64,000 bases of DNA from Terebella lapidaria. Its lineage: Eukaryota > Annelida > Polychaeta > Terebellida > Terebellidae. Positions 4,018-51,882 of the stretch are shown here, one piece after another (position 1 is the first letter of the stretch; each line of letters begins with the position of its first letter). The stretch covers positions 100,039,515 to 100,103,514 of the forward strand of contig OX424555.1 of assembly GCA_949152475.1 (NCBI GenBank), in the 5' to 3' direction. Below the pieces are notes generated by a model. That model was not told the DNA's origin and ran no database searches. It saw only the letters and a list, made by a program, of their open reading frames with translations. Made by a program: the position numbers and the translations under genes.

Positions 4018-7000
4018 CACCCAACTGTAGGTCTGGTGTACTCCCTGTGAGGTAGTGTCCAACTGTAGATTTGGTGTAGTCCCTGTGAGGTAGTGTCCAA
4101 CTGTAGGTCTGGTGTAGTCCCTGTGAGGTAGTGTCCAACTGTATGTCTGGTGTAGTCCCTCTGAGGTAGTGTCCAACTATAGATCTAGTGTAGGCCCTGT
4201 GAGGTAGTGTCCAACTGCAGGTCTGGTGTAGTCCCTGTGAGGTAGTGTTCAACTGTAGGTCTGGTGTAGGCCCTTTGAGGTATTGTCCAACTGTAGGACT
4301 GGTGTAGTCCCTGTGAGGTAGTGTCCAACTGCAGGTCTGGTGTAGTCCCTGTGAGGTAGTGTCCAACTGCAGGTCTGGTGTATGCCCTGTGAGGTAGTGT
4401 CCAAATGTAGGTCTGGTGTAGTCCCTGTGAGGTAGTGTCCAACTGTAGGTCTGGTGTAGGCCCTGTGAGGTATTGTCCAACTGTAGGACTAGTGTAGTCC
4501 CTGTGAGGTAGTGTCCAACTGTAGGTCTGGTGTAGTCCCTGGGAGGTAGTGTCCCATTGTAGGTCTGGTTTAGGCCTGTGAGGTAGTGTCCAAATGCAGG
4601 TCTGGTGTAGTCCCTGTGAGGTAGTGTCCAACTGTAGATCTGGTGTATGCCCTGTGAGGTAGTGTCCAACTGTAGGTCAGGTGTAGTTCCTGTGAGGTAG
4701 TGTCCAACTGTAGGTCTGGTGTAGTCCCTGTGAGGTAGTGTCCAAATGTAGGTCAGGTGTAGTCCCTGTGAGGTAGTGTCCAACTGCAGGTCTGGTGTAT
4801 GCCCTGTGAGGTAGTGTCAAAATGTAGGTCTGGTGTAGTCCCTGTGAGGTAGTGTCCAACTGTAGATTTGGTGTAGTCCCTGTGAGGTAGTGTCCAACTG
4901 TAGGTCTGGTGTAGTCCCTGTGAGGTAGTGTCCAACTGTATGTCTGGTGTAGTCCCTCTGAGGTAGTGTCCAACTATAGATCTAGTGTAGGCCCTGTGAG
5001 GTAGTGTCCAACTGCAGGTCTGGTGTAGTCCCTGTGAGGTAGTGTCCAACTGTAGGTCTGGTGTAGGCCCTTTGAGGTATTGTCCAACTGTAGGACTGGT
5101 GTAGTCCCTGTGAGGTAGTGTCCAACTGCAGGTCTGGTGTAGTCCCTGTGAGGTAGTGTCCAACTGCAGGTCTGGTGTATGCCCTGTGAGGTAGTGTCCA
5201 AATGTAGGTCTGGTGTAGTCCCTGTGAGGTAGTGTCCAACTGTAGGTCTGGTGTAGTCCCTGTGAGGTAGTGTCCAAATGTAGGTCTGGTGTAGTCCCTG
5301 TGAGGTAGTGTCCAACTGCAGGTCTGGTGTATGCCCTGTGAGGTAGTGTCCAAATGTAGGTCTGGTGTATGCCCTGTGAGGTAGTGTCCAACTGTAGGTC
5401 TGGTGTAGTCCCTGTGAGGTAGTGTCCAACTGTAGGTCTGGTGTAGTCCCTGTGAGGTAGTGTCCAACTGTAGGTCTGGTGTAGTCCCTGTGAGGTAGTG
5501 TCCAACTGTAGGTCTGGTGTAGTCCCTGTGAGGTAGTGTCCAACTGTAGGTCAGGTGTATGCCCTTTGAGGTAGTGTCCAACTGTAGGTCTGGTGTATGC
5601 CCTGTGAGGTAGTGTCCAACTGCAGGTCTGGTTTAGGCCTGTGAGGTAGTGTCCAACTGTAGGTCTGGTGTATGCCCTGTGAGGTAGTGTCCAACTGCAG
5701 GTCTGGTGTAGTCCCTGTGAGGTAGTGTCCAACTGTAGGTCTGGTGTAGTCCCTGTGAGGTAGTGTCCAACTGCAGGTCTGGTGTATGCCCTGTGAGGTA
5801 GTGTCCAACTGTAGGTCTGGTGTATGCCCTGTGAGGTAGTGTCCAACTGCAGGTCTGGTTTAGGCCTGTGAGGTAGTGTCCAACTGCAGGTCTGGTGTAT
5901 GCCCTGTGAGGTAGTGTTCAACTGTAGGTCTGGTGCATGCCCTGTGAGGTAGTGTCCAACTGCAGGCCTGGTGTATGCCCTGTGAGGTAGTGTCCAACTG
6001 TAGGTCTGGTGTAGTCCCTGTGAGGTAGTGTCCAACTGTAGGTCTGGTGTAGTCCCTGTGAGGTAGTGTCCAACTGTAGGTCTGGTGTAGTCCCTGTGAG
6101 GTAGTGTCCAACTGTAGGTCTGGTATAGTCCCTGTGAGGTAGTGTCCAACTGTAGGTCTGGTGTAGTCCCTGTGAGGTAGTGTCCAACTGTAGGTCTGGT
6201 GTAGTCCCTGTGAGGTAGTGTCCAACTGTAGGTCTGGTGTAGTCCCTGTGAGGTAGTGTCCAACTGTAGGTCTGGTGTAGTCCCTGTGAGGTAGTGTCCA
6301 ACTGTAGGTCTGGTGTAGTCCCTGTGAGATAGTGTCCAACTGTAGATCTGGTGTATGCCCTGTGAGGTAGTGTCCAACTGCAGGTCTGGTGTATGCCCTG
6401 TGAGGTAGTGTCCAACTGCAGGTCTGGTGTAGGCCCTGTGAGGTAGTGTCCAACTGTAGATCTGGTGTATGCCCTGTGAGGTAGTGTCCAACTGCAGGTC
6501 TGGTGTAGTCCCTGTGAGGTGGTGTCCAACTGTAGGTCTGGTGTATGCCCTGTGAGGTAGTGTCCAACTGTAGGTCTGATGTAGGCCCTGTGAGGTAGTG
6601 TCCAACTGTGGGTCTGGTGCAGTCCCTGTGAGGTAGTGTCCAACTGTAGGTCTGATGTAGGCCCTGTGAGGTATTGTCTAACTGTAGGTCTGGTGTAGTC
6701 CCTGTGAGGTAGTGTCCAACTGTAGGTCTGGTGTAGTCCCTGTGAGGTAGTGTCCAACTGCAGGTCTGGTGTAGTCCCTGTGAGGTAGTGTCCAACTGTA
6801 GGTCTGGTGTAGTCCCTGTGAGGTAGTGTCCAACTGTAGGTCTGGTGTAGGCCCTGTGAGGTATTGTCCATCTGTAGGTCTGGTGTAGTCCCTGTGAGGT
6901 AGTGTCCAACTGTAGGTCTGGTGTATGCCCTGTGAGGTAGTGTCCAACTGCAGGTCTGGTGTAGTCTCTGTGAGGTAGTGTCCAACTGTAGGTCTGGTGT

Positions 7001-7480
7001 AGTCCCTGTGAGGTAGTGTCCAACTGTAGGTCTGGTGTATGCCCTGTGAGGTAGTGTCCAACTGTAGGTCAGGTGTAGTCCCTGTGAGGTAGTGTCCAAC
7101 TGTAGGTCTGGTGTATGCCCTGTGAGGTAGTGTCCAACTGCAGGTCTGGTGTAGTCCCTGTGAGGTAGTGTTCAACTGTATGTCTGATGTAGGCCCTGTG
7201 AGGTAGTGTCCAACTGTAGGTCTGGTGTAGTCCCTGTGAGGTAGTGTCCAACTGTAGGTCAGGTGTAGTCTTTGTGAGGTAGTGTCCAACTGTAGGTCTG
7301 GTGTATGCCCTGTGAGGTAGTGTCCAACTGTAGGTCTGGTGTAGTCCCTGTGAGGTAGTTTCCAACTGTAGGTCTGGTGTAGTCCCTGTGAGGTAGTGTC
7401 CAACTGCAGGTCTGTTGTAGTCCCTGTGAGGTAGTTTTCATCTGTAGCTCTGAAGTAGGCTGTGTGAGGTAGTGTCCAAC
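4018..7480. repeat. 38-bp minisatellite, about 90 copies
   Basis: The unit contains TGTCCAACTGTAGGTCTGGT followed by GTAGTCCCTGTGAGGTAG. Variants differ mainly by GTAGTCC versus GTATGCC, GTAGG versus GCAGG, and a contracted TTTAGGCC form. A block near 4072-4320 recurs about 797 bp later (about 21 units), showing higher-order duplication. The minus strand of the unit has no stop in any frame, and 38 is not a multiple of 3. Long minus-strand open frames (up to 543 codons) therefore run through the array without indicating genes. The TGAGGTAG core matches the subterminal motif of element E. Confidence 0.9.
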
Positions 7481-7687
7481 TATAAGTACTTTTAAGACCC
7501 TGTGAGATAGTTGTCCGACTGTAGGTCTGATGTAGCCCTGTGAGGTACTCCTAATTTCCCTTGTGAGGTAGAATATGGCTGTCCTTGTCAAGTATTTTCA
7601 TTGTCCTTATCAGGTGTCTTCACAAGGACGAACATGACGCCAAAAAGTACGTCATAAGGACAATACCTCATAATCCCTTGGCGGGAG
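7481..7687. repeat. Right subterminal region and TIR of element E
   Basis: Degenerate copies of the minisatellite core and of the CCTTGTGAGGTA motif lead into the right TIR (7662-7687). The TIR is the reverse complement of 912-937 with three mismatches. Confidence 0.6.
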
Positions 7688-12480: not shown

Positions 12481-12512
12481 CAACAGATTCTTATGTAGAT
12501 TTTTCTTTGCAG

Positions 12513-15500
12513 GTTGAAGATCCTGAAAACATTCTGAAGGAGAAATGTAATGAACTTGCACAAATCATCAATGACTCTCAGTGTCTGGTGATTTACACTG
12601 GCGCTGGAATCAGCACTGTAAGTTTGTACATTTGAATACACTGGCGCTGGAATCAGCACTGTAAGTTTGTACATTTGAATACACTGGCGCTGGAATCAGC
12701 ACTGTAAGTTTGTACATTTGAATACACTGGCGCTGGAATCAGCACTGTAAGTTTGTACATTTGAATACACTGGCGCTGGAATCAGCACTGTAAGTTTGTA
12801 CATTTGAATACACTGGCGCTGGAATCAGCACTGTAAGTTTGTACATTTGAATACACTGGCGCTGGAATCAGCACTGTAAGTTTGTACATTTGAATACACT
12901 GGCGCTGGAATCAGCACTGTAAGTTTGTACATTTGAATACACTGGCGCTGGAATCAGCACTGTAAGTTTGTACATTTGAATACACTGGCGCTGGAATCAG
13001 CACTGTAAGTTTGTACATTTGAATACACTGGCGCTGGAATCAGCACTGTAAGTTTGTACATTTGAATACAATGGTGCTGGAATCAGCACTGTAAGTTTGT
13101 ACATTTGAATACACTGGTGCTGGAATCAGCACTGTAAGTTTGTACATTTGAATACACTGGCGCTGGAATCAGCACTGTAAGTTTGTACATTTGAATACAC
13201 TGGCGCTGGAATCAGCACTGTAAGTTTGTACATTTGAATACACTGGCGCTGGAATCAGCACTGTAAGTTTGTACATTTGAATACACTGGCGCTGGAATCA
13301 GCACTGTAAGTTTGTACATTTGAATACACTGGCGCTGGAATCAGCACTGTAAGTTTGTACATTTGAATACACTGGCGCTGGAATCAGCACTGTAAGTTTG
13401 TACATTTGAATACACTGGCGCTGGAATCAGCACTGTAAGTTTGTACATTTGAACACACTGGCGCTGGAATCAGCACTGTAAGTTTGTACATTTGAACACA
13501 CTGGCGCTGGAATCAGCACTGTAAGTTTGTACATTTGAATACACTGGTGCTGGAATCAGCACTGTAAGTTTGTACATTTGAATACACTGGTGCTGGAATC
13601 AGCACTGTAAGTTTGTACATTTGAATACACTGGTGCTGGAATCAGCACTGTAAGTTTGTACATTTGAATACACTGGCGCTGGAATCAGCACTGTAAGTTT
13701 GTACATTTGAATACACTGGCGCTGGAATCAGCACTGTAAGTTTGTACATTTGAATACACTGGCGCTGGAATCAGCACTGTAAGTTTGTACATTTGAATAC
13801 ACTGGCGCTGGAATCAGCACTGTAAGTTTGTACATTTGAATACACTGGTGCTGGAATCAGCACTGTAAGTTTGTACATTTGAATACACTGGTGCTGGAAT
13901 CAGCACTGTAAGTTTGTACATTTGAATACACTGGCGCTGGAATCAGCACTGTAAGTTTGTACATTTGAATACACTGGCGCTGGAATCAGCACTGTAAGTT
14001 TGTACATTTGAATACACTGGCGCTGGAATCAGCACTGTAAGTTTGTACATTTGAATACACTGGCGCTGGAATCAGCACTGTAAGTTTGTACATTTGAATA
14101 CACTGGCGCTGGAATCAGCACTGTAAGTTTGTACATTTGAATACACTGGCGCTGGAATCAGCACTGTAAGTTTGTACATTTGAATACACTGGCGCTGGAA
14201 TCAGCACTGTAAGTTTGTACATTTGAATACACTGGCGCTGGAATCAGCACTGTAAGTTTGTACATTTGAATACACTGGTGCTGGAATCAGCACTGTAAGT
14301 TTGTACATTTGAATACACTGGTGCTGGAATCAGCACTGTAAGTTTGTACATTTGAATACACTGGTGCTGGAATCAGCACTGTAAGTTTGTACATTTGAAT
14401 ACACTGGTGCTGGAATCAGCACTGTAAGTTTGTACATTTGAATACACTGGTGCTGGAATCAGCACTGTAAGTTTGTACATTTGAATACACTGGTGCTGGA
14501 ATCAGCACTGTAAGTTTGTACATTTGAATACACTGGTGCTGGAATCAGCACTGTAAGTTTGTACATTTGAATACACTGGTGCTGGAATCAGCACTGTAAG
14601 TTTGTACATTTGAATACACTGGTGCTGGAATCAGCACTGTAAGTTTGTACATTTGAATACACTGGTGCTGGAATCAGCACTGTAAGTTTGTACATTTGAA
14701 TACACTGGTGCTGGAATCAGCACTGTAAGTTTGTACATTTGAATACACTGGCGCTGGAATCAGCACTGTAAGTTTGTACATTTGAATACACTGGCGCTGG
14801 AATCAGCACTGTAAGTTTGTACATTTGAATACACTGGCGCTGGAATCAGCACTGTAAGTTTGTACATTTGAATACACTGGCGCTGGAATCAGCACTGTAA
14901 GTTTGTACATTTGAATACACTGGCGCTGGAATCAGCACTGTAAGTTTGTACATTTGAATACACTGGCGCTGGAATCAGCACTGTAAGTTTGTACATTTGA
15001 ATACACTGGCGCTGGAATCAGCACTGTAAGTTTGTACATTTGAATACACTGGCGCTGGAATCAGCACTGTAAGTTTGTACATTTGAATACACTGGCGCTG
15101 GAATCAGCACTGTAAGTTTGTACATTTGAATACACTGGCGCTGGAATCAGCACTGTAAGTTTGTACATTTGAATACACTGGCGCTGGAATCAGCACTGTA
15201 AGTTTGTACATTTGAATACACTGGCGCTGGAATCAGCACTGTAAGTTTGTACATTTGAATACACTGGCGCTGGAATCAGCACTGTAAGTTTGTACATTTG
15301 AATACACTGGCGCTGGAATCAGCACTGTAAGTTTGTACATTTGAATACACTGGCGCTGGAATCAGCACTGTAAGTTTGTACATTTGAATACACTGGCGCT
15401 GGAATCAGCACTGTAAGTTTGTACATTTGAATACACTGGCGCTGGAATCAGCACTGTAAGTTTGTACATTTGAATACACTGGCGCTGGAATCAGCACTGT

Positions 15501-18500
15501 AAGTTTGTACATTTGAATACACTGGCGCTGGAATCAGCACTGTAAGTTTGTACATTTGAATACACTGGTGCTGGAATCAGCACTGTAAGTTTGTACATTT
15601 GAATACATTGGTGCTGGAATCAGCACTGTAAGTTTGTACATTTGAATACACTGGTGCTGGAATCAGCACTGTAAGTTTGTACATTTGAATACACTGGTGC
15701 TGGAATCAGCACTGTAAGTTTGTACATTTGAATACACTGGTGCTGGAATCAGCACTGTAAGTTTGTACATTTGAATACACTGGTGCTGGAATCAGCACTG
15801 TAAGTTTGTACATTTGAATACACTGGCGCTGGAATCAGCACTGTAAGTTTGTACATTTGAATACACTGGTGCTGGAATCAGCACTGTAAGTTTGTACATT
15901 TGAATACACTGGTGCTGGAATCAGCACTGTAAGTTTGTACATTTGAATACACTGGCGCTGGAATCAGCACTGTAAGTTTGTACATTTGAATACACTGGCG
16001 CTGGAATCAGCACTGTAAGTTTGTACATTTGAATACACTGGCGCTGGAATCAGCACTGTAAGTTTGTACATTTGAATACACTGGCGCTGGAATCAGCACT
16101 GTAAGTTTGTACATTTGAATACACTGGCGCTGGAATCAGCACTGTAAGTTTGTACATTTGAATACACTGGCGCTGGAATCAGCACTGTAAGTTTGTACAT
16201 TTGAATACACTGGCGCTGGAATCAGCACTGTAAGTTTGTACATTTGAATACACTGGTGCTGGAATCAGCACTGTAAGTGTGTACATTTGAATGACATGAA
16301 TAATGTAGTCACCTAAATGCCGAGGTAGATCTAATCCAGACTGTGAAGTATTACCTTCATTTGTCGTGTCAATGAGGTACCTGCTGATGCCATGTGTGCT
16401 TTTGGGGCTCTAAAACAGTCTATTATGCTCAAGAAGTACAAAAAACGTCATGTCCATTGTCTGCATTATGCAAAAACAAACATGACGAATTAAAATGTAA
16501 CATTATTGCGTTTTGTATGTATTTGGCACAGTAGACTGATTCTATGGTTTATTTATACCTAAATTACATGGTGGCGATCCTGGTGGTAAACAGGAACCCC
16601 ATTGATGCATGTTTGTTAAATGTTACTACTGCAGGCTGCTTCCATTCCCGACTATCGCGGACCCAATGGCGTGTGGACACTGCTACAGCAAGGCATCCAA
16701 CCTGAGTAAGTGGCTGTTGATGTCTGTCAGCCTGGGATCTAGATATATATTCGGGGAGCCGATATTTCTGACAGATTGTTTTCCCTTGCAGAGCCCAGGA
16801 ACTGTCCGAGAGTGAGCCGACCTTCACTCACATGTCTCTTGTGGTGCTCCATAAGCAAGGCTTGGTGAGTTGGGTGTCAAGCACATAGTCCACTTGTGTT
16901 TTTGATGTTGTTTGTGGCAGTGACTCCCAAGTTGTGCTGTCTGGTACCCAGGTGAAGCACGTCGTCTCTCAGAATTGTGATGGTCTACACGTCCGCAGTG
17001 GTTTTCCTCGTCTGGCACTTTCCGAGGTCCACGGGAACATGTTCATTGAGGTGTCTTATCAGCGAAGTATCTCACCATGATAATCACTTGTTGCTTGTTG
17101 TATCCCCCGAACAAAGTTCGGCGGATACTATGGATTTACGATCGTCGCGCCGCCGCCGCCGCGTCCGCGTCCGCGTCCGCAGACACTTTCTTGTGAACGC
17201 GCTACAGCTTACAAATCTGAACCGATTTTGATAATATTTTATATGGACATGACTTATGGTGAGATCTCAACACCTATCGATTTTGGTTGCCATAGCAACC
17301 AAAATAGCCGATTGGCGTAACATTTTGTGCTCAAATTAGCCTGTTTAACACACATGGGTTGTGAACGCTCTACGGGTGGGAGTTTTCGATGAATGATGAT
17401 GAAATCGCACAGGCTCAATGAGAAAGACCATCACACGAAACCTATTGTTTTTCAGAATGATCGAATAAATATTAATAAGTTTGAGAGGTTAACTTATTAC
17501 AACAATTAAAATGCCTACTTTGACATGTGTGATCACTCCAATAACCTGTACTATGAAAGCAAATTGCACTGGAGTCTTGTTCAGAATACAGAACTGATGT
17601 TTTTGGTGAAAACAGAACAATATTACTGAATAAGTTAACATTGGTTTTACTAGTTAAGTCTATTATTGACCACAATAAAAATAGTTAAGATGAGAAACAT
17701 TTATTATTGAGCTCAACAAGGTAAAGGTTTTGTCCAGTAGAGATTTCACAGGTGTAACCAAATAAGTTAACATTATTTTCACTAGTTAAGTCTATTATTG
17801 ACCACAATAAAAATAGTTAAGACAAGAAACATTTATTATTGGGCTCAACAAGGTAAAGCTTCTGTGCAGTAGAGATTTCATGGCTGTAGCCGAATAAGTT
17901 AACATCATTTTTGTATCCCCCGAACAAAGTTCGGCGGATACTATGGATTTGGCTTCGTCGTCCGCGTCCGCGCCCGCGTCCGCGTCCGCAGAGATTTTCT
18001 TGTGAACGCGCTACAGGCCGCAATTCTCACCCGATCACCATTATTTTTTGCAGGCACATATATAATGGTAAGATCCCGACACCAATCGATTTTGGTTGCC
18101 GTGGCAACTGAATTGGTCGTTTGGGGACACATTTTGCATTGAAAACAGCCTGTTTGAGACACATGGCTTGTGAACGCGCTACAGGCCGCAATTCTCACCC
18201 GATCACCATTATTTTTTGCAGGCACATATATTATGGTAAGATCCCGACACCAATCGATTTTGGTTGCCGTGGCAACTGAATTGGTCATTTGGGGACACAT
18301 TTTGCATTGAAAACAGCCTGTTTGAGACACATGGCTTGTGAACGCGCTACAGGCTGCAATTTTTGACGAATCTCGATAATATTTGGAAGTGTTGTTGGGA
18401 AGGGCTGTCACACGAAACCAATCGTTTTTTAGAATGATCATATAAATATTAATATGTTAACAGCCTAACTTATTACAGAATTTTGAAATATCCATTTTGA

Positions 18501-21500: not shown

Positions 21501-24500
21501 CAATTTAGTCATCTTGAAATGCAGTTTTTGTCAACTTTTGCTTGAATTTCAACTTGGAACCAAGTTTGTCAAATATTCTGAGTTGAAGTATAACTTTGGG
21601 TGAAAACTTTTATCTGGCTGTAATTTCGCTATTTTATCAAACATGTCGAAATGGAAATTCGTATGCAGTGATTTTAGTGGTGATCTTGAATTCGACCTTC
21701 AATAAGCTTGAAAGGTTTCACACTCACAATGTACATCAGTGATATATTTGGGGCAACAGGGATGATAGGGCTACGGGGGATACACCCAAGCGGTCGTAGG
21801 CGACCGGAAGCGTCTAGTTTGTCTTGTATGTCAAGGCATTTGTATAATCTGTATCATGTAAGCATGAAGGACGGTTTCTGTGTGTCACTGTGCAGGTCTG
21901 CGGACGCTGTGTACCAGCTGTCGAGTATCTTCGAGTCTTTGATGTTACCGAGCGTACTGGAGTCAGGAAGCACAGGACGGGTCGCCTTTGTGCTCAGTGT
22001 GGTGGTGAGCTCCAGGACTCTATCGTTCACTTTGGCGAAAAGGGTGATCTGGGACCGCCTCATAACTGGGACCAGGCTGCGGCCGCCACGGATTGCGCTG
22101 ATGTTATTCTATGTTTGGGCTCCAGTCTAAAGGTAAACAGTCAGCTTTTCAAACACAATGGTGTACTCGTAGACAAGTAGGTTGGTCATGGACAAGATGA
22201 TAATTGTTTTCTATATCCAGGTGTTGAAGAAGTACCCTTGTCTCTGGCACACACACAAACCTCCGTCAAAGCGAGCCAAGCTCTGTATCGTCAATCTCCA
22301 ATGGACGCCGAAAGATGATTCCGCACATCTTAAAATCAACGGTCGCTGTGACCAAGTCATGGAGATTGTCATGGAAAAACTGGGGCTGGATGTGCCCAGG
22401 TATTCAATGTAAGTGACATCTCTCTTTCTCTCGTGTGCCCAGGTATTCAATGTAAGTGACATCTCTCTTTCTCTCATAAGTGATGTCATACTCTCACTGT
22501 CTCATAGTCAGTAATCTTGCTAGGTTTATGCTATTAAAAAAAACTATGGTTTTAGCAGATTTTTTAGGTTACCGGACCTATGGTCCGATAACCTATTGGC
22601 ATGGCGTTGCGTCCGTCGTCCGTCGTCCGGCGTCCGTCGTCGTCCGTCGTCGTCGTCGTCCACATTTTTATCTTTTTTGTTTACAGGCGAATATTTCTGA
22701 AATTTTGCACAAAAATACTTAAAAATAATTCAAGAAGGAGGTATTTTTTAGTTTTTTGATTTTCGCATTTTTTTCAAAATGGCGGCCGTTTTCGACGAAA
22801 AATGCCTGATTTTGGACTTTGGCGGCCATTTTCTCAAAATCTGTTCAGTAACTTTTTTTCTTTTTGATAAATAACACTCCTCATATGTACTTCTATGATG
22901 TCTATAAATTTCGTTGCGCTTGAATCGCTCGAAGTGGGCCATTTTGGCCCAAACTCGGCTCAAATGGGACTTTCCCATGTTAAATTCTCCTATGCTTTAT
23001 AATGGGACACATTATGCCTAATATCTCACTTGATATTGAGATTAGAGACTAGGAGTCAATTGTGGACCTATAGGAAATGATATATGCTGAATATTCTCAT
23101 GACCTTGAATTTGACCTCTGACCTCACTTTCAAGGTCAGAGCACAAAATGGCTTATATCTCGCTTATTATCGACTCTACAGCTTAGGAATCAATTGTGGA
23201 CATATAGGAAATGATATGTTCTGAATATTCTCGTGACCTTGAATTTGACCTCTGACCTCAGTTTCAAGGTCAGAGCACAAAATGGCTTATATCTCGCTTA
23301 TTATCGACTCTACAGCTTAGGAATCAATTGTGGACATATAGGAAATGATATATGCTGAATATTCTGATGACCTTGAATTTGACCTTCGACCTCATTTTCA
23401 AGGTCACAGGACAAAATGGCTAATATCTCGCTTGTTATTGACTTTACAGCTTAGCAATCAATTATGAACATATAGGAAATGACATATGCAGATTATTGTC
23501 ATGACCTTGAATTTGACATTTGACCTCATTTTCAAGGTCACAGGACAAAATGGTTAATATCTCACTTATTATCGATTTTACAGATTAGGAATCAATTGTG
23601 GACATATAGGAAATGATATATGCTGAATATTCTCGTGACCTTGAATTTGACCTCTGACCTCATTTCTAAGGTCCAAGGACAAACTGGCTCATATCTTGCT
23701 CCTCTATTGACTGTATGGCTTGGGAATCAATTGTGGACATGATATACATGATATAGAAAATGATATACACTGAATATTTTGATGACCTTGAATTTGACCT
23801 TTGCCCCTTCATTTTCAAGGCTACAGCATAAAATTGCTAATCTTTCTCTGATTATTGAACTTACAGCTTAGCAATCAACTGTGGACATGATATATGCTTA
23901 ATGTTATATATGCTGAATATTCTCTTGACCTTGAATTCAACCAGTGACCTGGCTAATACCTAAAATATTAAACATTGTCCGGTAACCTATCTTTGGCCCT
24001 TGGCCTAATTTTTTCATCTTTTTCTTCCGCCGTTTTGGTTTCCGAACGATAACTTTTGTTTGCCTCAATGGATCTTTGACAAATTTTCATCACTGGTCCG
24101 AAATGATACGTGGAAGAACCCTATTCTTTTTGAGCCAGATCTGAGGTCCGTGAGGATGAAATCAAGGTTGATTTTGAGACTCGGTTTCCGGGCAATAACT
24201 CAATATGTATTCATGCAATGGCTGCAGATCTTCATGCAATGGCTTTCATAGAGGTTCATATACAACCAAGGAAGAACCCTATTGATTTTTGGATCAATCC
24301 GTCCAACAAACTATGACCTAGAGCTCGAAAGAATCTTTGCTGATTCATCCTTGAGGCTTTCATGCATACCTCTGAAACGGTGTGTCGTAGAGCGAAGGGG
24401 GCGTTATTTTCAGACTCGTTGCTTTAGACAAACATGTCTGAGGGGTATTGGGGATGACTTTTGACCTTGACCTGAATTTTTTTTTCTGAGTGGGCATTTT

Positions 24501-27500
24501 TTCGTTTTCGTCGATATCTCGGTAATAGTGCATCGAATAATGACACAGGCCCTGACCTGGATTTTTTTTTTGAGTCAGCATTTTGTTTGTTTGGTATCTC
24601 AGTACGGTGTGTCGTAGAGCGAGACGGATGTCCTTCATTTCAAACATGCTATAGGTTAGTCTCTACACCGAAATGCCTCCAAGGCATCTTTAGGCCTTGA
24701 TGTCTAGTTATTAGTATTAATGAAGTGTCTACTTTGTTTGTAGGCACACAGACCCGTTGTTTTACTTGGCCACCCCCCTCGCTGTCAGTGAGCAGGCCAC
24801 GACATGCAAGAAGCAGCTTGTGGCACCACCTGACTACAACCGGGATGAGGTGCAGAGAATGGTGGCGGCCTCCTCACAGGCCCTCTCCCTTAATGCCACG
24901 CACCCGACTGGCGGTCCTAATCCCCGACACAAACGAGACGCTCTCCCGCAGACTGCCAACCGTGTGGCCAGGGACTGGAAGGGCAAGCGAATCAAGCGGC
25001 TTTGTGCAACGTCTCCAGCTCTACATCAAGGCACCGACTTCTGGAGGAAAAAGCCCGACACAAGTTTGAGGACAATGCGAAGTCGCAAAGTCCCATCCAA
25101 CAGAGCAGAAAACACGACACACAAAGCTAAACTCAAGTCAGCTCTGGTCAAATCTGCGGAGGTGCGAGTGGATTACATATCAGCATCAGTCGGCAGACAC
25201 ACCCGACAGAGAAGGAAACAGGCAAGGCTACAGGCCATAAATCATAGCCACCAGTGTTCAGACCAGCCACATTCCAACAACAACATTGACACAAAGGGCA
25301 TCAAGAAGGACCAGGGATTGAATGGGACACACTGTCAGCAGGACATTGACAGTAAACCTCACACGGCCGACCCCGCACCGGCTGTATCTCGGACAGACAT
25401 CAAACCTCAAACAAACATTTCCAAATCAACCAATGCTGCCAGCACTGATAGCAAACCTCAGATTGACTCTTCTAGCTTGGTCAGTGCTTCAGACTTGGAT
25501 TCTGTACATCGGGTGGGAAGCGCCACAATAGCTGCGCCCAACTCAACATTGTCCAACCGAATTACAAGTAACAGACAAACAAATGAGGTCGTTGGTTCTA
25601 TGTCTGATTCATCCAGTACAACTGCCATAAAGTCTGAGCCTCTTCCTTTGACAGAATGTTCAGACAACCAGAAGATATCCGACTCTAAGTCTGGTCACTG
25701 TGAGCAAGACAGACCCATAGATCATCTGATCTGTGAGGCTGTGGAGCGGCTTGAGGCACATCCCAGCCCTGGCAATCCCACAGAGACGATGCACGGATCT
25801 ATTACACAATCACTGTTGACTGCCGCTAGAACAGGTCCAGAGAGCACACCGTCAGGTTCCAGTTCACCAGAGCTGGTTACCAAGGATACCAATAGGTCGG
25901 CACACTTCACACCCAAGTCCCTAGAGAACTCGCATTTAATGGCCACAAGCCAGGCTTTGACATATCCGAAGGTCTGTGAACCTCAAGCCATCACCTCCAA
26001 CCCTGTTCAAGTAACACCTAGCCAGGTCATATCGACTGCAAACAACATGATTACTGGCTGCGACTCCAGCAACATTTCAGCTGACATTAGGGAATCTGTG
26101 ACAACACCTGCTGAAAGTACAACAAACAGTCCACACATGTCCAGAGTTGGACAGGGAAGTGAGTTGAAGACTGTGCTAGATGCTCTCCAAACAGACACCA
26201 ACTCAAAATCTGTGATTGCCATGACATCAAACAGCTCGCAAAATTGTCAAGTGACCAACACTTCCCGAGTCTTGATCAAGGAACGGGAATTTCCACACTC
26301 GGACACAAAGTCTGTTGACATTATTCCCATTCAAAGAGATAGTAGATATATTGCACTTAACTCATCATCGGAGAAGTATGAAACAAACGGTCAGAATGTT
26401 TGTACAGCTGAGAGCTCAACAACAGGAATCGACCAGTCCCAGGCTGGTACACCCGGGGTCACTGTACAGAGTACAACAGGAATCGACCAGTCCCAGGCTG
26501 GTACACCCGGGGTCACTGTACAGAGTACAACAGGAATCGACCAGTCCCAAGCTGGTACAGCCGGGGTCACTGTACAGAGTACAACAGGAATCGACCAGTC
26601 CCAGGCTGGTACAGCCGGGGTCACTGTACAGAGTACAACAGGAATCGACCAGTCCCAGGCTGGTACACCCGGGGTCACTGTACAGAGTACAACAGGAATC
26701 GACCAGTCCCAGGCTGGTACAGCCGGGGTCACTGTACAGAGTACAACAGGAATCGACCAGTCCCAGGCTGGTACACCCGGGGTCACTGTACAGAGTACAA
26801 CAGGAATCGACCAGTCCCAGGCTGGTACACCCGGGGTCACTGTACAGAAAACAACAGGAATCGTCCAGTCCCAGGCTGGTACACCCGGGGTCACTGTACA
26901 GAGTACAACAGGAATCGACCAGTCCCAGGCTGGTACAGCCGGGGTCACTGTACAGAGTACAACAGGAATCGACCAGTCCCAGGCTGGTACACCCGAGGTC
27001 ACTGTACAGAAAACAACAGGAATCGACCAGTCCCAAGCTGGTATACCCAGGGTCACTGTACAGAGTACAACAGGAATCGATCAGTCCCAGGCTAGTGCGT
27101 CTCTGTGTCACACAACCAGTTTACAACATACGACATCACCTCTGACAATCAAGACTGATATTGAGATACCTGTCAACTCCCTGCAGACTCCCAGCTTCAT
27201 TTCCAGTGCCCAGAGCTCCACAACGCCCGGCCCCACAAAGATGATCACCATGACCGTGTCCGAGTACATGTCCTCAATAACCACCAAGGTTTCTGGTAAC
27301 ACCACCACAACACCCTCCAGAGCCGACACTGCCTCAACACCACCGAGACCCAGAGCTGCAACTCCAACCAAGGTCTGCCCAGTCCACGGAGTTGTGTCAC
27401 CCCGGAAACGAGTTGCCACAAGTCCACAGGCCCAGGGAACCTCAGTGATCCGCCAACAGCTCATGACGCCCCCAGTCGCTGGCCCGGTTCGAGGCCTGAT

Positions 27501-30225
27501 GTCCCCACCTGTACCAGTCTCCGGACCGGTTCGAGGTATGATGTCCCCGCCTGGACCAGTCTCCGGACCGGTTCGAGGTATGATGTCCCCACCTGTACCA
27601 GTCTCTGGACCGGTTCGATGTATGATGTCCCCACCTGTACCAGGCTCCGGACCGGTTCGAGGTCTGATGTCCCCACCTGGACCTCGGCATGCGGGATCTG
27701 CCCCATACTTCAGTGCCACTTACAGGCCACACTTTGTACCCATGGGCAGTCCACCTGTTGTCCAGAAAAAGAACATTGTTGACATTGCTTCGCGGATCTC
27801 TCCACCACTGGAAAACAAACACATGCAGCTCCCAATCCAGCTCCCAGGAGAAAATACTGTCCGGTCCACCACACAGTCTGCAGCGAACAGCAAGGCTGAC
27901 AACAAGCCATCACCAACACAGCAACAGCAGACCGCTCCAGGCACCATACACCCAAAACCCAAGTCGAAAAAGCGGAAGCGATCGAAACAACAGCAACCAC
28001 TTCCAGCGGAGTCCTTGCCAGAAGCGACAGATGTTGTGAAGGATCAGAATCTCCAGGTTGCTGTAAGTCAGCCACCAGAAACCGAGGGCGCTAAGACAGA
28101 CGTCCCTGTACCAGGTGCAGCTGATCCTCAGATGTACAAGTTCTTGTCTGATTGTCTGATGAGAAACATCCAGCTGATCACAGGTCTTCCGGTGTTGCCA
28201 ATACCTGCCCCCTCATCTAGCATACAGAGTGCTGGAGTAAAGGTGTCAACCTCTGAGTCTCAGGCTCCACCTCTCAAGGTCCCTGTTCCACCCAAAGGTC
28301 CTGGAACTGTGCCAGCCAGAGCCCACTCTACTGGTGCCAAACATTCCCCATCGAAGGCCAAAAAATCAAAGCAACGAGAGGCTGCAGTGCGTCAAACGCC
28401 GCAGTTAGACTGGCACCCCACGGAGCACAGGGAGGATCAGAGACATAGCGGTCCACACGTGGAAGGTCTTGTCCACCATCACATGCTTACAGATGTGCCA
28501 GCTCCACTCCGACTTCCACCACCTGCTCACCAAGTCCAGATCCCAGTCCTGATCCAGACCACACGACCCTCCCCTGCCCATCAGTCCTCTCACGCCGCAC
28601 TCTCTGCGCTCAAACCCCGCGAGACACACACCACAGCCCCCCACACACCCAGCACCAGTATCCCACAACCTGCTGCCGTCAACCTCAGCAGTCATGTCCC
28701 TGCCACTCACCAGCGTGCGCCACTACCCCGCGATCCGACCGTCAGCTGCCCCAACATTGTGGCAGCCCTAGGCAAGCCGCCGCCACCTGGTTGGTCAGAG
28801 ACATGCCACGCCCCCGGAGACCCACCCCAGCACCACATGGAGGCTCTGAAGAAGAACATTCAGATCCAAAACATACTGGCTCATCTCCGGAAAGCGACGC
28901 CTGGGACACCACTGCCTCCTTACATGTACGACTCCAAGCTGTCTGCACCACTTGCAGGGGTTACGGAAGCCAGCTCTCAGGGTGTGTCAGCCACCAGTGC
29001 TAGCTCACGATCATCTTCAGAACAATATTCCCAGACCACGCAGCCCACACAGCTCCATGCACCCCATCACATTACTGCTGCTAAGCCTGGCACTGATCAA
29101 GCTGCTGATCCCAAATCAATCCCTGCCTCTATGTCTGAACAACAGCTCCTTGCTCTGAATGCTCTGTATGGCTCAACACACAGCTGGCACTTGCCCCAGA
29201 ACCGGTCCATTGAGGGGCCACCTCAGTCTGTGCCAAGTGCAGTTCTGATCAGCAGCATCCCTGAGCGAGCCATCAACCCGAACCAGATTGCGGGTAGTCT
29301 GGAGACCTCTGGGACAGATTCCCAGCTGTCGGCCAGTGCCTCGTATGATGGGATCCAGGACCCTGCCCAGGACTCATCTCTCTTGAGTGCTCCAGTCGCC
29401 GGGCCGGGGGAGACGGGTGATGAGGACATCTGCTACGAGACGTACCTGATTGACACGACCTCGGCAGCGGACGAGGCCACAGCGCTCCAGCAAGCGCAGG
29501 CCGCCGTACTCCAGCAGCTGTGTACGGACGGCTCCGATACCGCTCAGACTGTTGTCGTCATGAACACGCAGGATGTCTCCTTTCTGGATGACATCGAGTG
29601 TGAGATAGAGATTGAGGACGCAGAGAGTCAACAGGCAATGTCACTCACGGATGGCGTGATCATGGACGCTGGGGGCGTGTCCGGCCTCCGTACCGAGAGC
29701 ACAGCGACCACGCCGTCAGCAGAGCTCCATGCCACACATGTGTACCCGGAGGTCCAGCAGCGCAGCACAGTCACCACTCCATCCACGGAGCTCGAGGCCA
29801 GCTCTCTGCACTCACACTACTCAGATCTACTGCACCAGTCAGGAGGTTCGGATATACTCCACCAGTCAGCCGGGTCAGAAATGCTGCATCAGTCCTCGAG
29901 CTCAGAGATGCTGCACCAATCAGTGAATGCTGAGCTGCTCCAACAGCCTCTTCTCCAGCAGGCGGCGACATCAGCCTCCTTCCCAGAGACGACGGTGTCA
30001 GGGCCGCCTGTGTACACAGAGGTGGTGCACCAGCAAGCCCCAGAGGACGGTCAGATCGGACAACTCGGCATGCAGCTGATGGAGACTGGCGATGTCAACA
30101 TGCCGACTCACAGCACTACCTGGGACACAACACACAAACCCAAACACAACTCCGTCCTGTCTGTGCCTGGCTGGTACGGAAAAGGACTCGGTATCAAGAA
30201 AAATAAACGCAAGAGAACAAAGTAA
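12513..30225 (+). CDS. SIRT7: SIRT7-like NAD-dependent protein deacylase with giant C-terminal extension (N-terminal exon(s) not seen)
   Basis: Exons are 12513-12617, 16635-16705, 16792-16864, 16952-17050, 21896-22132, 22221-22408 and 24744-30225. All introns are GT-AG, and the joined frame is open for 2,084 codons. SIRT7 removes acyl groups from lysines (for example H3K18ac) using NAD+, in the nucleolus and on chromatin. Numbering from the first visible codon: GAGIS at 30-34, [11 protein letters not shown] at 39-49, QNCDGLH at 90-96, catalytic His at 110 (EVHGN), zinc cysteines at 118, 121, 148 and 151, GSSLK at 191-195, and the family-typical [13 protein letters not shown] near 267 matches the end of the vertebrate core. 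The last residues (GWYGKGLG followed by a Lys/Arg cluster) match the basic C-terminus of vertebrate SIRT7, although human SIRT7 is only 400 residues. The first visible exon starts in phase 0 and corresponds to vertebrate sequence just before the core. Introns free of mobile elements are 86-88 bp. Confidence 0.93.
12595..16291 (+). repeat. 43-bp minisatellite made of the SIRT7 exon end plus its 5' splice site, 86 donor copies
   Basis: The unit holds ACACTGGCGCTGGAATCAGC, ACT and the donor GTAAGTTTG, then TACATTTGAAT. It therefore copies the last ~23 bases of exon 12513-12617, which encode TGAGIST, plus about 20 intron bases. Donors lie at 12618, 12661 and so on to 16273; the distance of 3655 is exactly 85 x 43, so no net indel has accumulated. 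The main variation is GGCGCTGG versus GGTGCTGG, occurring in blocks, for example a run of T-type units at about 14279-14720. This suggests recent unequal exchange or conversion. The last copy has GTAAGTGTG and then unique sequence. Confidence 0.97.
16292..16634. other. Remainder of SIRT7 intron after the minisatellite
   Basis: Unique AT-rich intron sequence leading to the acceptor CTACTGCAG at 16634. No other feature is seen. Confidence 0.6.
17099..21818 (+). mobile_element. Family B Helentron-like element B1 in a SIRT7 intron (outer element, split by B2)
   Basis: It starts TGTATCCCCCGAAC with a hairpin CCGAAC..GTTCGG, followed by a CG-rich (CCGCGT)n tract, GTTGCCATAGCAACC, ~130-bp units and then ~123-bp units. 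It ends GGGGGATACACCC, hairpin CGGTCG..CGACCG, GCGTCTAG and T at 21818. B1 itself consists of 17099-17911 and 21022-21818; the middle is the nested B2. It fills most of the 4.8-kb intron between exons 17050 and 21896. There is no coding capacity. Confidence 0.75.
17912..21021 (+). mobile_element. Family B element B2, complete, nested in B1
   Basis: It has the same termini as B1 (TGTATCCCCCGAAC at 17912, GCGTCTAGT at 21021). The uninterrupted relative at about 36250 reads CATCATTTTT joined directly to ACTAGTTAAG. Here those two words flank B2, so the insertion fell in a T-run with no target duplication. B2 has expanded arrays: a ~130-bp repeat block at 18600-19900, including an internal ~400-bp duplication (compare 18930-19260 with 19340-19680), then ~123-bp units to 20760. 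Confidence 0.75.
22391..22475 (+). repeat. 43-bp tandem duplication across the next-to-last SIRT7 5' splice site
   Basis: TGTGCCCAGGTATTCAATGT and the following ~22 bases (donor, GACATCTCTC, TTTCTCTC) occur at 22391 and again at 22434, a spacing of 43. The copy includes the exon end and a second GTAAGT donor at 22452. Using the second donor would read ATG TAA, a stop, so the first donor (22409) must be used. Confidence 0.95.
22567..24012 (+). mobile_element. Family A element A3, complete, in the last SIRT7 intron
   Basis: Left end GGTTACCGGACCTATGGTCC, hairpin and GTCCGTCGTCC microsatellite. The body has about eight ~120-bp tandem units with GACCTTGAATTTGACC, AAATGGCTAATATCTCGC and AATCAATTGTGGACATATAG. 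Right end TGTCCGGTAACCTATC, a TTGGCCCTTGGCCTAA hairpin and a T-run. This is the clearest full-length copy of the family. There is no open frame of note. Confidence 0.75.
24013..24708 (+). mobile_element. Family C element C1, directly abutting A3
   Basis: The body has diverged ~120-bp units (CATTTTTTCGTTTTCG, GATATCTCGGTAAT, GTGTCGTAGAGCGA). The 3' end is GCCTCCAAGGCATC, a hairpin AAGGC..GCCTT, then GATGTCTAG. Its start is the T-run at the end of A3, so A3 and C1 may behave as one composite unit. The reversed pair at 37975-39521 has the same order. Confidence 0.55.
24744..30225 (+). CDS. SIRT7: SIRT7 last exon: 1,827-codon exon with low-complexity tail
   Basis: Acceptor TTTGTTTGTAG; the first base completes a split Met codon from exon 22221-22408. 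It encodes [10 protein letters not shown], the end of the SIRT7 core, then about 1,780 residues rich in Ser, Thr, Pro and Gln with no recognised fold. Within it are 12 full plus one partial copies of an 18-residue repeat ([18 protein letters not shown]) at about 26416-27095, and five 14-residue [15 protein letters not shown] repeats at about 27478-27690. There is also a basic cluster KSKKRKRSK near 27960, an acidic segment ([13 protein letters not shown]) near 29590, and LHQS repeats near 29830-29960. The exon ends with GWYGKGLG and a basic run matching the vertebrate SIRT7 terminus, so the frame is under selection to its end. The tail is probably disordered; its function is unknown. Confidence 0.9.
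26416..27095 (+). repeat. 54-bp coding tandem repeat in SIRT7
   Basis: Twelve complete units and one partial unit of 54 bp, each 18 codons, so the frame is kept. Variation is mostly P/A (ACACCC versus ACAGCC) and a few S/K and D/V changes, all non-disruptive. The antisense open frames over this stretch are by-products of the repeat. Confidence 0.95.
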
Positions 30226-33848: not shown

Positions 33849-33875
33849 AATAAATATATTATGAGACTGTTTATT
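33849..33875. terminator. Opposed poly(A) signals of convergent genes
   Basis: Plus-strand AATAAA is at 33849-33854 and minus-strand AATAAA at 33875-33870. The minus signal contains the GEMIN6 stop TAA (33873-33871). The two signals are 15 bp apart and face each other, so cleavage sites for either strand would overlap the other signal. The plus signal could serve SIRT7, but that is unproven. Confidence 0.5.
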
Positions 33876-34416
33876 GCTCTTGTTCTGACTTGGCAGGCAT
33901 GTTTCTGATGAGTTTCTGCACTCTAGCAAGAATGATTTCGTTTGTACTCTGGCAGTTTTCTGGCTGATACGGTGAAGTAATGGTCAAAGCGCCAGACAAA
34001 CATACCAAATCCGGACTGAAGGCCTCGGTTTCTACTGGAAGTCTATTCTTGACCAGCCACTGGTACAGGCTCTCCTTGCATACAAGCAGTTCCTCGCGGC
34101 TCAGGCGGTCTGTACCGACACAAGCCTTGAACAGCGATTCCAGATCCGCTGTGCTGTTGTCCAACACACTCAATCCCACCACAGCATGACCAACAATCAG
34201 CTGTAGGTTCGTCAGTTTGCCGGTGACGTCAAGCGACACGAGCACCAGACTCTCTGAGACCGGGTCGATGGTGTACAGAAGACCTTTGTGTATTGTCCCA
34301 TCCCGGGCCTCCACACTCACTTCCCGGTTCACATATCTCATGTAATCTGCCGGATCCTTGTGGAATATTCGATGACAGTATGGACTCTCTTTCTCCCCTT
34401 TGCTGCTGGTCTCCAT
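33871..34416 (-). CDS. GEMIN6: Gem-associated protein 6 (SMN complex subunit)
   Basis: GEMIN6 pairs with GEMIN7 in an Sm-fold heterodimer inside the SMN complex, which loads Sm proteins onto spliceosomal snRNAs in the cytoplasm and Cajal bodies. The 181-residue intronless frame is close to the vertebrate length (167). The N-terminal half (about residues 20-90) is the Sm-like domain, with DPVSESLVLV and IVGHAVV in the places of the vertebrate strands. The C-terminal half has LxxRKxSLxxWLxKNxxP-like sequence (CKESLYQWLVKNRLPVE) and the family signature PYxPENCxSxNEIILxRVQxLI at about 154-174. The start has an excellent Kozak context (ACAAAATGG). It lies only 5 nt after the MED9 stop on the same strand, so the two probably share an mRNA. 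The stop overlaps AATAAA, implying a very short 3' UTR. Confidence 0.93.
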   Translation of the reverse strand: METSSKGEKESPYCHRIFHKDPADYMRYVNREVSVEARDGTIHKGLLYTIDPVSESLVLVSLDVTGKLTNLQLIVGHAVVGLSVLDNSTADLESLFKACVGTDRLSREELLVCKESLYQWLVKNRLPVETEAFSPDLVCLSGALTITSPYQPENCQSTNEIILARVQKLIRNMPAKSEQEQ

Positions 34417-34421
34417 TTTGT

Positions 34422-34632
34422 TTACTTTATGTCAAAGTCTGAAAGGTTCTTGTATTTACGAAGCAGATCGATCTTTGTGATGAGTTGTTGCCGGAGTATT
34501 TCTATCTGTCGCTGCTGTTCGCTCCTGCTGAGGTCGATTCCTGGAAGAGCCTCCACGTGTTGTCTTGCTTTCTGCAGCTTGGCTCGCAGTTCAGTGATCT
34601 TAGGGTTCAAGTCGTAGGAATCCTTGTCTACA
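34422..34632 (-). CDS. MED9: Mediator subunit 9, last exon (upstream exons not found)
   Basis: MED9 is a small middle-module subunit of the Mediator complex, which links activators to RNA polymerase II. The exon starts after the acceptor TGTATGATTACAG at 34632, finishing a split codon, and encodes 69 residues to a TAA at 34424-34422. The pattern VDKD-x5-NPKITELRAKLQKAR, then LPGIDLS, EQQRQIEILRQQL and LLRKYKN matches the C-terminal helical region of vertebrate MED9, including the PGI-LS turn and the final K-Y-K motif. The N-terminal part must be in an exon at higher coordinates; none was recognised as far as the window's end. The stop is followed by ACAAA and then the GEMIN6 ATG, so this 3' end lies inside a shared transcript unless GEMIN6 has its own promoter within the MED9 exon or intron. 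Confidence 0.85.
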
Positions 34633-41723: not shown

Positions 41724-42586
41724 TGTGGCGATTTTGCCCTAAGCACGCGGCAGGTGATTGTAAACATAAATGCCATTTATGTGGCCTTTTCGTACTTGGC
41801 CTTGTTTTGACATGCTCCGTTCGAGCGTGCGTTGCCACGGCGACGTATTGTAATTTACGCTCCAGTAAACTATAACAATGGATCGATTAGACCTCGCGTG
41901 CGTCCTACAGCTTGTGGTGTATTATATATACACTGGAAGCGACTCGATCGAGGAGATTGTCCGAGAGAGAGTGAACAGGACGCACGCAAGGCTCGCCATG
42001 AGCTTTGCGTTCCCTGGTCAGGAGTAGTGGGCTCTTAGAGCCCTGGGGACGATTTCCATGGGGAGGCCCGGGCTGGGAGAGACAAGTTGCTGACTCGGGG
42101 GCGTAAGCCCTGTGGATCGCCAGTTCTCTCCCTTCCCGGGACGTGTGACACAGGCTCTGGCAGACCGTCGGGCTGGCTCAGAGTTCTATCTCTGTGACAG
42201 TGCCTTCGGCGAGACCGGCCAGCAACATGCCCACGTGTACGTGCTCCGTGGAGCCGCTCCATGGCTCCTCGGACTCTACACACGGCTACATTACCATAAC
42301 GAATGTATAATGTGCATGTTGTAGATAAGGTGATGATGATGATATGTGTTATGTTGTGATGTATGACGGCCGGACCCGTTCCGGATATGCGGAGCCCGTT
42401 CCGGATGTGCGGAGTCCCGTTCCGGATGTGCGGGACTCGTTCCGGAGCCCGTTCCGGATGTGCGGGACCCGTTCCGGATGTGCGGAACCCGCTCCGCATG
42501 TTCTGGATCCGATCCGGAGGTGCTGTTACCTGGTTGTAGTTGTTACCGTAGAGAGCGGCGCCCTGTAGCGGGCACCGAACTTTACA
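41724..42586 (+). repeat. 5' LTR (863 bp)
   Basis: TATATATA at 41923-41930 is a plausible TATA box for the element's promoter. Bases 42378-42500 carry about six imperfect tandem copies of CGTTCCGGATGTGCGG. It ends TTTACA. Confidence 0.95.
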
Positions 42587-42587
42587 T

Positions 42588-42605
42588 TGGTGCCGTGACC
42601 AGGAT
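42588..42605 (+). other. Primer-binding site, tRNA-His type
   Basis: TGGTGCCGTGACCAGGAT, one base after the LTR, is the complement of a CCA-tailed tRNA-His 3' end (CACGGCA plus CCA, with CCTGGT). The match is 18 bases by my knowledge of animal tRNA-His. Confidence 0.75.
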
Positions 42606-42704
42606 CAGTCCGACGGCGTCCCATTGCAGCCTAATGTCACAGTGTCGTAGCCTCCTTCGTCCCTGGGGACCCTCCGCTCCTCCGGGACCATCTCCGCACG
42701 AGAT

Positions 42705-44942: not shown

Positions 44943-44976
44943 ATCCGGACGTGGTGGCGACCAACACTACGTCCGG
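44933..44976 (+). promoter_or_regulatory. -1 ribosomal frameshift signal joining gag to pol
   Basis: The slippery heptamer GGGAAAC (44933-44939) is read as G-GGA-AAC in the gag frame. The gag stop TAG follows at once (44940-44942). After a 5-nt spacer, CCGGACGT (44945-44952) pairs exactly with ACGTCCGG (44969-44976). G-U, G-C, U-A and G-C pairs extend the stem to 12 bp with an 8-nt loop (44957-44964). The pol frame is -1 relative to gag and open on both sides of the site. Confidence 0.85.
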
Positions 44977-51870: not shown

Positions 51871-51882
51871 AGAAGGGGGTAA
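51870..51882 (+). other. 3' polypurine tract
   Basis: AAGAAGGGGGTAA directly precedes the 3' LTR and would prime plus-strand DNA synthesis. Confidence 0.85.

Follow-up and report, generated by a model that had tools for sequence, protein, structure and literature searches.

The SIRT7 gene at the locus

The window, that is the whole stretch of 64,000 nucleotides that was analysed, contains on its forward strand seven exons that join in one open reading frame with intact splice sites and that, judged by sequence homology, belong to the gene for the sirtuin SIRT7. An exon of 35 residues in a single open frame (12513..12617), preceded by the acceptor CAG at 12510-12512, is followed by an exon that continues the reading frame with 23 residues and two bases of the following codon (16635..16705), by exons at 16792..16864, 16952..17050, 21896..22132 and 22221..22408, and by a last exon with a very long open frame of 1826 codons up to the stop (24744..30225). 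The Sir2 core scores 403.2 bits against the SIRT7 chain 9gmk_K as compared to 181.5 bits for the next best match, a SIRT6 chain, and the spliced core aligns to 9gmk_K (E 5.9e-120) with no gap at the junction formed across the array described below. In addition, the closest among the homologues listed is a protein named sirtuin-7 with 67% identity, Pfam SIR2 is matched with 86.2 bits at a cut-off of 24, and a basic C-terminal tail of the SIRT7 type, GW[FY]G[KR]G..., is present at the end of the frame and by eye resembles GWFGRGCTKRTKRKKVT in P0002. The original prediction is borne out in that the exon end at 12617 is part of SIRT7.

The gene model is incomplete, since a tblastn search of the 32.5 kb upstream, in which N-terminal segments from 114 of the 121 homologues served as queries, gave nothing convincing for the N-terminal exon or exons (best E 0.036). 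The last exon matches no Pfam family at E 0.01, and among 7987 candidates scored a single weak homologue appeared, covering 9% of it, a protein named organic cation transporter. A search for Gemin6 returned 0 of 123 candidates. Half of the 12 matches in the genome lie outside these exons and are merely 38-56% identical, and therefore no near-identical second copy exists that could replace SIRT7; as the seven exons are also intact, a pseudogene superseded by another copy was rejected. In a protein tree of 23 rows, made up of the query and 22 of the 121 homologues chosen by hand, the query falls together with Lottia and Helobdella at a support of 90/89, and a long-branch warning applies. The host is probably a mollusc or a kindred animal.

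A minisatellite across the exon-intron boundary

The 3' end of exon 12513..12617 seeds a mirage minisatellite of 86 head-to-tail copies of 43 bp on the forward strand (12594..16291), each unit consisting of the last 24 bases of the exon and the first 19 bases of the following intron and carrying one GTAAGT. Copy number and exact spacing, both part of the original prediction, were confirmed by three approaches. TRF reports period 43 and 86.0 copies at 12594-16292 with 99% matches and 0% indels; ACTGGYGCTGGAATCAGCACTGTAAGT with up to 3 mismatches is found 86 times in the window, always on the plus strand at intervals of 43, against a mean of 0.00 in 100 shuffles; and in the copy-by-copy comparison CTGTAAGT occurs 86 times in register-aligned copies. 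GTAAGT is present in 86/86 copies, as had been predicted, with donor positions running from 12618 to 16273, which equals 85 x 43.

The copies are nearly identical. In register, 57 of the 86 match the consensus and 24 differ by a C>T change at unit position 9 alone, so that two copy types cover 81/86 and the interior of the array is homogenised; two copies have T>C at position 1 and three have two changes. Altogether, four of the 43 columns are variable (positions 1, 5, 9 and 31). The position-9 variant is clustered in 14 runs where 38 would be expected (0 of 20000 shuffles were that low), a pattern expected under local duplication. The first copy is identical to the exon and forms its true end. 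The last copy (16249..16291), on the intron edge and with GTAAGTGTG replacing GTAAGTTTG, is variant F, whose two changes occur in no other copy, and it likely is a remnant of the original intron start. Read from the sequence, the repeat junction GAAT/ACACTGG combines GATT/ACACTGG of the exon with GAAT/GACATG of the intron.

Two other identities for the repeat were considered and rejected. A query of two units gave at least 42 matches in the genome, all of them within the SIRT7 array, which argues against a dispersed repeat. A structured RNA was rejected since Rfam gave no match in the window at gathering scores and the unit and a trimer fold no better than shuffled sequences (z 0.45 and 0.68). 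With the C>T change a 7-bp hairpin forms (-10.2 vs -6.3 kcal/mol, z -1.21).

How strong are the donors and which of them is used? Of all the donors, only the first 5' splice site (12618..12623) can be joined to the next exon with no stop arising in frame. The original prediction was right in this point, because read-through of the first donor meets a TGA at 12633-12635, which any later donor would include in frame. Its description of the donors as strong consensus sites stands for the intron side, a perfect GTAAGT, but not for the exon side, where ACT differs from CAG at each of the positions -3 to -1. With a simple scorer based on consensus frequencies, the first donor reaches 3.11, a middle value among the gene's six donors, the other five ranging from 0.33 to 5.31. 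The array donors are fair sites, not the strongest. Reading frame and homology suggest that the first, exon-proximal donor is the one used in splicing. Where 5' splice sites are duplicated, the exon-proximal one is not always the winner.

A second, small exon-end duplication is found in the same gene at the 3' end of exon 22221..22408. It comprises two copies of 43 bp on the plus strand (22391..22475; TRF 2.0 copies, 100% matches), with the exon end TCAAT followed by GTAAGTGAC and donors at 22409 and 22452.

Arrays in other genes of the genome

Elsewhere in the genome, five of the six longer donor-bearing arrays examined (at least five copies) sit at exon ends. These are found in MORC2 (37 bp x 25), in a SEC14-like gene (43-53 bp, 8-10 copies) and in a mitochondrial carrier gene (40 bp x about 30), and two further exons probably have the same architecture (31 bp x 94 and 35 bp x 44-46). 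All were picked by the donor motif, a selection that favors intact donors. Among the 6-mers of the unit, intact GTAAGT ranks high in three of the six arrays, L051 (rank 4/26, intact in 84/94 copies), L047 (2/38, 8/10 copies) and L044 (4/31, 12/17 copies), and intermediate in L053 and L045 (13/30 and 14/35), whereas in the MORC2 array (L046) the donor is among the least-kept stretches (26/32, 16/25 copies). Across the six arrays, which are diverged enough for this comparison, the conservation of GTAAGT does not consistently exceed that of the remaining unit. In the SIRT7 array itself variation is too low for a comparison of the donor with the rest of the unit.

Comparison with known systems

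Minisatellites across exon-intron boundaries have been described as "mirages" in amphioxus, where the genes concerned include Adh3, the globins BflGb6 and BflGb9, troponin C and PGBD5, where RT-PCR points to regular splicing, and where length and somatic instability are reported for Adh3, according to the accounts available (PMC3087553, PMC3902484). The SIRT7 array resembles them as an intragenic tandem duplication over an exon-intron boundary with a unit of comparable size (10-72 bp in Adh3), and its interior and edges resemble the concerted evolution and distinct edge copies recounted for BflGb6. The unit spans the boundary, the interior is homogenised with a distinct edge copy, and coding frame and splice sites are intact over the seven exons found. 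Unlike BflGb6, for which 3 and 6 copies in two haplotypes are given, it has 86 copies, its host groups with a mollusc and an annelid and not with amphioxus, and beside SIRT7 three, probably five, exon ends of the same genome hold arrays of 8-94 copies.

Copying of splice-site sequence in tandem within a gene is also the basis of the Rogers model, in which introns are gained when a splice or proto-splice site is duplicated in tandem (outlined in PMC3087553), and for which cases are described in Drosophila and potato (PMC2891723, PMC4974935); premature stop codons within the duplicated sequence were there taken to suggest a role of NMD (PMC2891723), as far as these accounts extend. In contrast to intron gain, the SIRT7 unit has on inspection no evident good acceptor and no new intron was made, the array lying inside an existing intron between 12513-12617 and 16635-16705. 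Short units in introns are likewise known from intron 3 of the abalone TSSK1-like gene, a 27-bp-unit array whose repeat number varies among individuals (PMC6905558), and from the C. elegans intronic minisatellite CeRep25B (PMC4039745), but in the descriptions available these units, unlike that of SIRT7, are not presented as an exon end plus splice site.

Origin and consequences of the array

How could such an array arise and be tolerated? With a probability of about 0.8 we regard it as a young, nearly neutral mirage minisatellite that originated from a 43-bp duplication and expanded, with the first donor being used. The structure has an exon-end seed, low internal divergence, clustered variants, a second duplication in the same gene and similar arrays in other genes. 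A tandem duplication of 43 bp spanning the boundary would have occurred at a 1-bp microhomology, slippage or unequal exchange would have led to 86 copies, and ongoing turnover would uphold their uniformity. The spliceosome may commit to the exon-proximal donor, which emerges in the transcript before all others and whose distance from the upstream acceptor is the natural one for exon definition, and transcripts from later donors would gain the in-frame stop and be degraded by NMD. Given such commitment and removal, the array would be close to neutral except for making the intron longer (4017 nt instead of about 362). Against this reading counts that SIRT7 has two exon-end duplications, both with a 43-bp unit, more than expected if births were evenly spread.

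It could be imagined instead that the donors act as an array of U1 sites that delay or tune splicing, suppress premature polyadenylation, or tie SIRT7 output to copy number. The intact donors in all 86 copies and the high ranks of GTAAGT in three other arrays speak for such a role, but with so few variable columns in SIRT7 the intact donors mean little, and the other arrays were selected in a manner biased to intact donors, one of them, in MORC2, keeping its donor poorly and two being intermediate. Moreover, the SIRT7 unit lacks exon-side pairing to U1, and amphioxus mirages are reported, in the accounts available, with regular splicing. We therefore consider this role very unlikely. The original prediction of U1 titration, splicing delay, polyadenylation shielding and dosage dependence found no support, given the likeness to amphioxus, the other exon-end arrays and the absence of consistent extra donor conservation; some functional effect of the array is possible. 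That the array is an assembly artefact at a locus with in truth one or a few copies is highly improbable. Assemblies are prone to error in long near-identical tandem arrays, but here the variants follow a pattern, the array differs between its two edges, the assembly has long-range contiguity with a contig C1 of 100.8 Mb, and it contains other exon-end arrays of 25 to 94 copies, mostly more diverged, so that the class is real even if the SIRT7 copy number were inexact.

Exon ends might also be favored, beyond being tolerated, for minisatellite birth in this lineage, by a process linked to transcription or splice-site sequence. The exon-end position of five of six arrays and the two duplications within SIRT7 would fit, but pairs of the form AGGTAAGT-N15-45-AGGTAAGT are no commoner than in a backwards control (347 vs 342), and in a hand count among the matches listed for C1, C2, and C3 up to 25.7 Mb, the donor motif forms 6 clusters with at least three places and the backwards motif 4. 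Furthermore, AGGTAAGT itself is often a real donor, and the exon-end location is therefore partly built in. We hold favored birth to be unlikely, and quite unlikely the broader proposal that exon ends are a preferred birthplace tied to transcription or the 5' splice site, that many genes in this lineage would therefore have tens of near-identical donors behind a used exon end, that the first donor is taken, and that copy number fine-tunes the output of some genes including SIRT7.

The kind of structure is already known; new are its size, its repeated occurrence within a single genome and its host, which probably does not belong to the cephalochordates. Tens of near-identical tandem 5' splice sites of which the first alone is productive constitute a natural test of donor choice among equals, whether by transcription order, exon length or later quality control, and several exon-end arrays of 8 to 94 copies in one genome suggest that mirages extend beyond amphioxus and provide a dose series for this question.

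The SIRT7 gene and its array

The exon at 12513-12617 runs in an open frame through the first unit of the array to TGAGIST, and is followed by exons at 16635-16705, 16792-16864, 16952-17050, 21896-22132, 22221-22408 and, as the last one, 24744-30225, all on the plus strand, with GT/AG junctions and in one open frame. Once spliced, the 271-residue core aligns with SIRT7 chain 9gmk_K at E 5.9e-120, and the alignment runs without a gap across the exon junction split by the array, while the best SIRT6 chain reaches less than half of the 9gmk_K score with the same query. The open frame and this ungapped match bear out the original prediction that the exon from which the array was seeded belongs to SIRT7. 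In a protein search the named sequences among the best 120 of 2429 homologues were mostly sirtuin-7 (top identity 67%), and in a SIRT7 tree with long branches and no amphioxus sequence included the query grouped with Lottia (mollusc) and Helobdella (annelid) with support 90/89. N-terminal exon(s) were not found when the N-terminal parts of homologues were compared with 32.5 kb upstream. The last exon contains a single open frame of 1826 codons without a Pfam family, located between the Sir2 core and a conserved basic C-terminal tail and including coding repeats (54 bp x 12.5; 42 bp x 5.0); with this exon the SIRT7 protein would exceed 2000 residues.

Searching the 761.6-Mb assembly with the core yielded 12 matches, six of which are the SIRT7 exons (74-95% identity as aligned). 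The remaining six, on contigs C330, C2, C109 and C8, are 38-56% identical, which indicates that a near-identical second SIRT7 copy is absent and that these matches stem from foreign contigs or from sirtuin genes other than SIRT7. The C330 match, second by E-value, lacks introns over most of the query and contains stop codons. TAA/TAG codons lie inside the frames of the Sir2 matches at C330:22827-23600 and C109:16643-16963, which may be old pseudogenes or else belong to contigs of a different organism that uses a ciliate-type code.

A tandem-repeat search of the window found the 43-bp unit at 12594-16291 in 86 copies with 99% matches and no gaps. Moreover, a 27-base probe of exon end plus donor matched the window 86 times, always on the plus strand and at a spacing of 43, and shuffled sequence not at all, so that the predicted number of copies and their exact spacing both hold. 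The array makes up 91% of an intron of 4017 nt, which would measure about 362 nt without it. Aligned in register, 57 of the 86 units equal the consensus, 24 carry a single C>T at position 9, two a T>C at position 1 and three two changes; only columns 1, 5, 9 and 31 vary. The position-9 variant occurs in blocks (14 runs versus 38 expected; none of 20000 shuffles was as low). Upstream, at 4021-7547, lies a second large minisatellite (38 bp x 92.9, 91% matches).

Unit structure, donors and origin

Each unit joins 24 bases of the exon, TACACTGGCGCTGGAATCAGCACT, to 19 bases of the intron, GTAAGTTTGTACATTTGAA. The final copy leads into the remaining intron and has GTAAGTGTG to itself, and therefore probably preserves the original intron start. 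As read from the sequence, the edges of the array are GATT|ACACTGG at the exon and GAAT|GACATG at the intron, with GAAT|ACACTGG at the repeat junctions; for the founding duplication one shared T would suffice. As predicted, the frame is kept by the first donor (12618) alone, since use of any other retains an in-frame TGA at 12633-12635. The donors had also been called strong consensus sites. This is true of the intron side, GTAAGT, but not of the exon side, where ACT adds no match to CAG, so that by sequence the sites rate as fair rather than extreme.

A second duplication is found in the same gene at the exon end 22408 (TCAAT|GTAAGTGAC), where the 43 bp are repeated once without any mismatch, giving the same donor again at 22452. 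The edges are consistent with duplication at an AT common to both, followed by one change. Use of the donor at 22452 would break the frame, with a stop immediately past the first donor. The duplication also yields a pyrimidine-rich tract and CAG ahead of GTATTCAAT|GTAAGT, a potential 9-nt microexon (22443-22451) whose preceding intron would span just 34 nt.

Elsewhere in the window, a piece of the SMN pathway gene Gemin6 (Pfam Gemin6 and Gemin6_C) lies near SIRT7 at 33871-34431 on the minus strand, probably by chance. The GC-rich region 42372-52682 has long gag-like and pol-like frames and the same 152-bp tandem stretch twice, 10159 bp apart, as in two LTRs; by its motifs we take it to be a Ty3-type LTR retroelement.

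Donor-bearing arrays elsewhere in the genome

Is such an array special to SIRT7? Genome-wide, two AGGTAAGT motifs at a distance of 15-45 bases occur 347 times, versus 342 for the backwards motif as control. Among the matches listed, 12 stretches on contigs C1, C2 and C3 (to 25.7 Mb) were examined, and in six the motif lies within an array of at least five copies (TRF); the other six were short repeats or chance pairs in which no coding exon was seen. Five of the six arrays stand at an exon end. The array in MORC2 has 25 copies of 37 bp (joined exons versus MORC2 chains, E 2e-30), and that in a SEC14-like gene (SEC14-like protein 2, E 2.7e-11) has units of 43-53 bp in 7.7 copies by TRF or 10 by in-register count. 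The array in a mitochondrial carrier gene (Pfam Mito_carr, E 1.7e-4, 21.7 bits at a cut-off of 22.3; E 0.28 at best against PDB) has about 30 copies of 40 bp, and an exon that is presumably carrier-like follows downstream. A coiled-coil exon (L051; open frame and splice sites, no Pfam or PDB family match) bears 94 copies of 31 bp, and a galactose-binding-like exon (L053; Pfam 18.8 bits, below the cut-off of 27.8) 44-46 copies of 35 bp, from which a diverged stretch separates its own donor GTATAT. For these two the position at an exon end is probable, mainly from open frames and splice sites. An early stop past the first donor is also present in MORC2, the SEC14-like gene and L051. Exon-end arrays are thus not special to SIRT7. 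Nor is there a clear surplus of arrays that bear donors, since among the listed matches from the same genome stretch clusters with at least three places numbered six for the donor motif versus four for the backwards motif.

Are the repeated donors maintained?

If the donors matter, GTAAGT should outlast the rest of the unit in diverged arrays. The SIRT7 array is too uniform for this test, which rests on the six others. Among unit 6-mers intact GTAAGT ranked 2/38 in the SEC14-like array, 4/26 in L051, 4/31 in the further array L044, 13/30 in L053, 14/35 in the carrier array and 26/32 in MORC2, a mixed outcome with three high ranks and one low, in a sample whose selection by motif favours intact donors. 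RNA folding of the SIRT7 unit and its trimer was ordinary.

Comparison with amphioxus mirages

Tandem minisatellites spanning exon-intron boundaries are called mirages in amphioxus, where reports describe units of 10-72 bp in Adh3, units of 150-160 bp in the globin BflGb6 with six and three copies in two haplotypes, unstable length, and regular splicing as suggested by RT-PCR (PMC3087553), as well as further cases in PGBD5 and troponin C (PMC3902484). The SIRT7 array shares all features of these mirages that could be tested here. Its host is probably no amphioxus, as suggested by the SIRT7 tree, by contigs of 56, 62 and 101 Mb and by the repeat content. No report of mirages outside amphioxus was found in the literature searched, which covered few subscription papers. 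The SIRT7 array is a confirmed and striking mirage minisatellite, large for its kind, and is probably nearly neutral. What makes it interesting is that the same genome carries several such arrays, which together form a natural experiment on how a single donor is picked from many equivalent ones.
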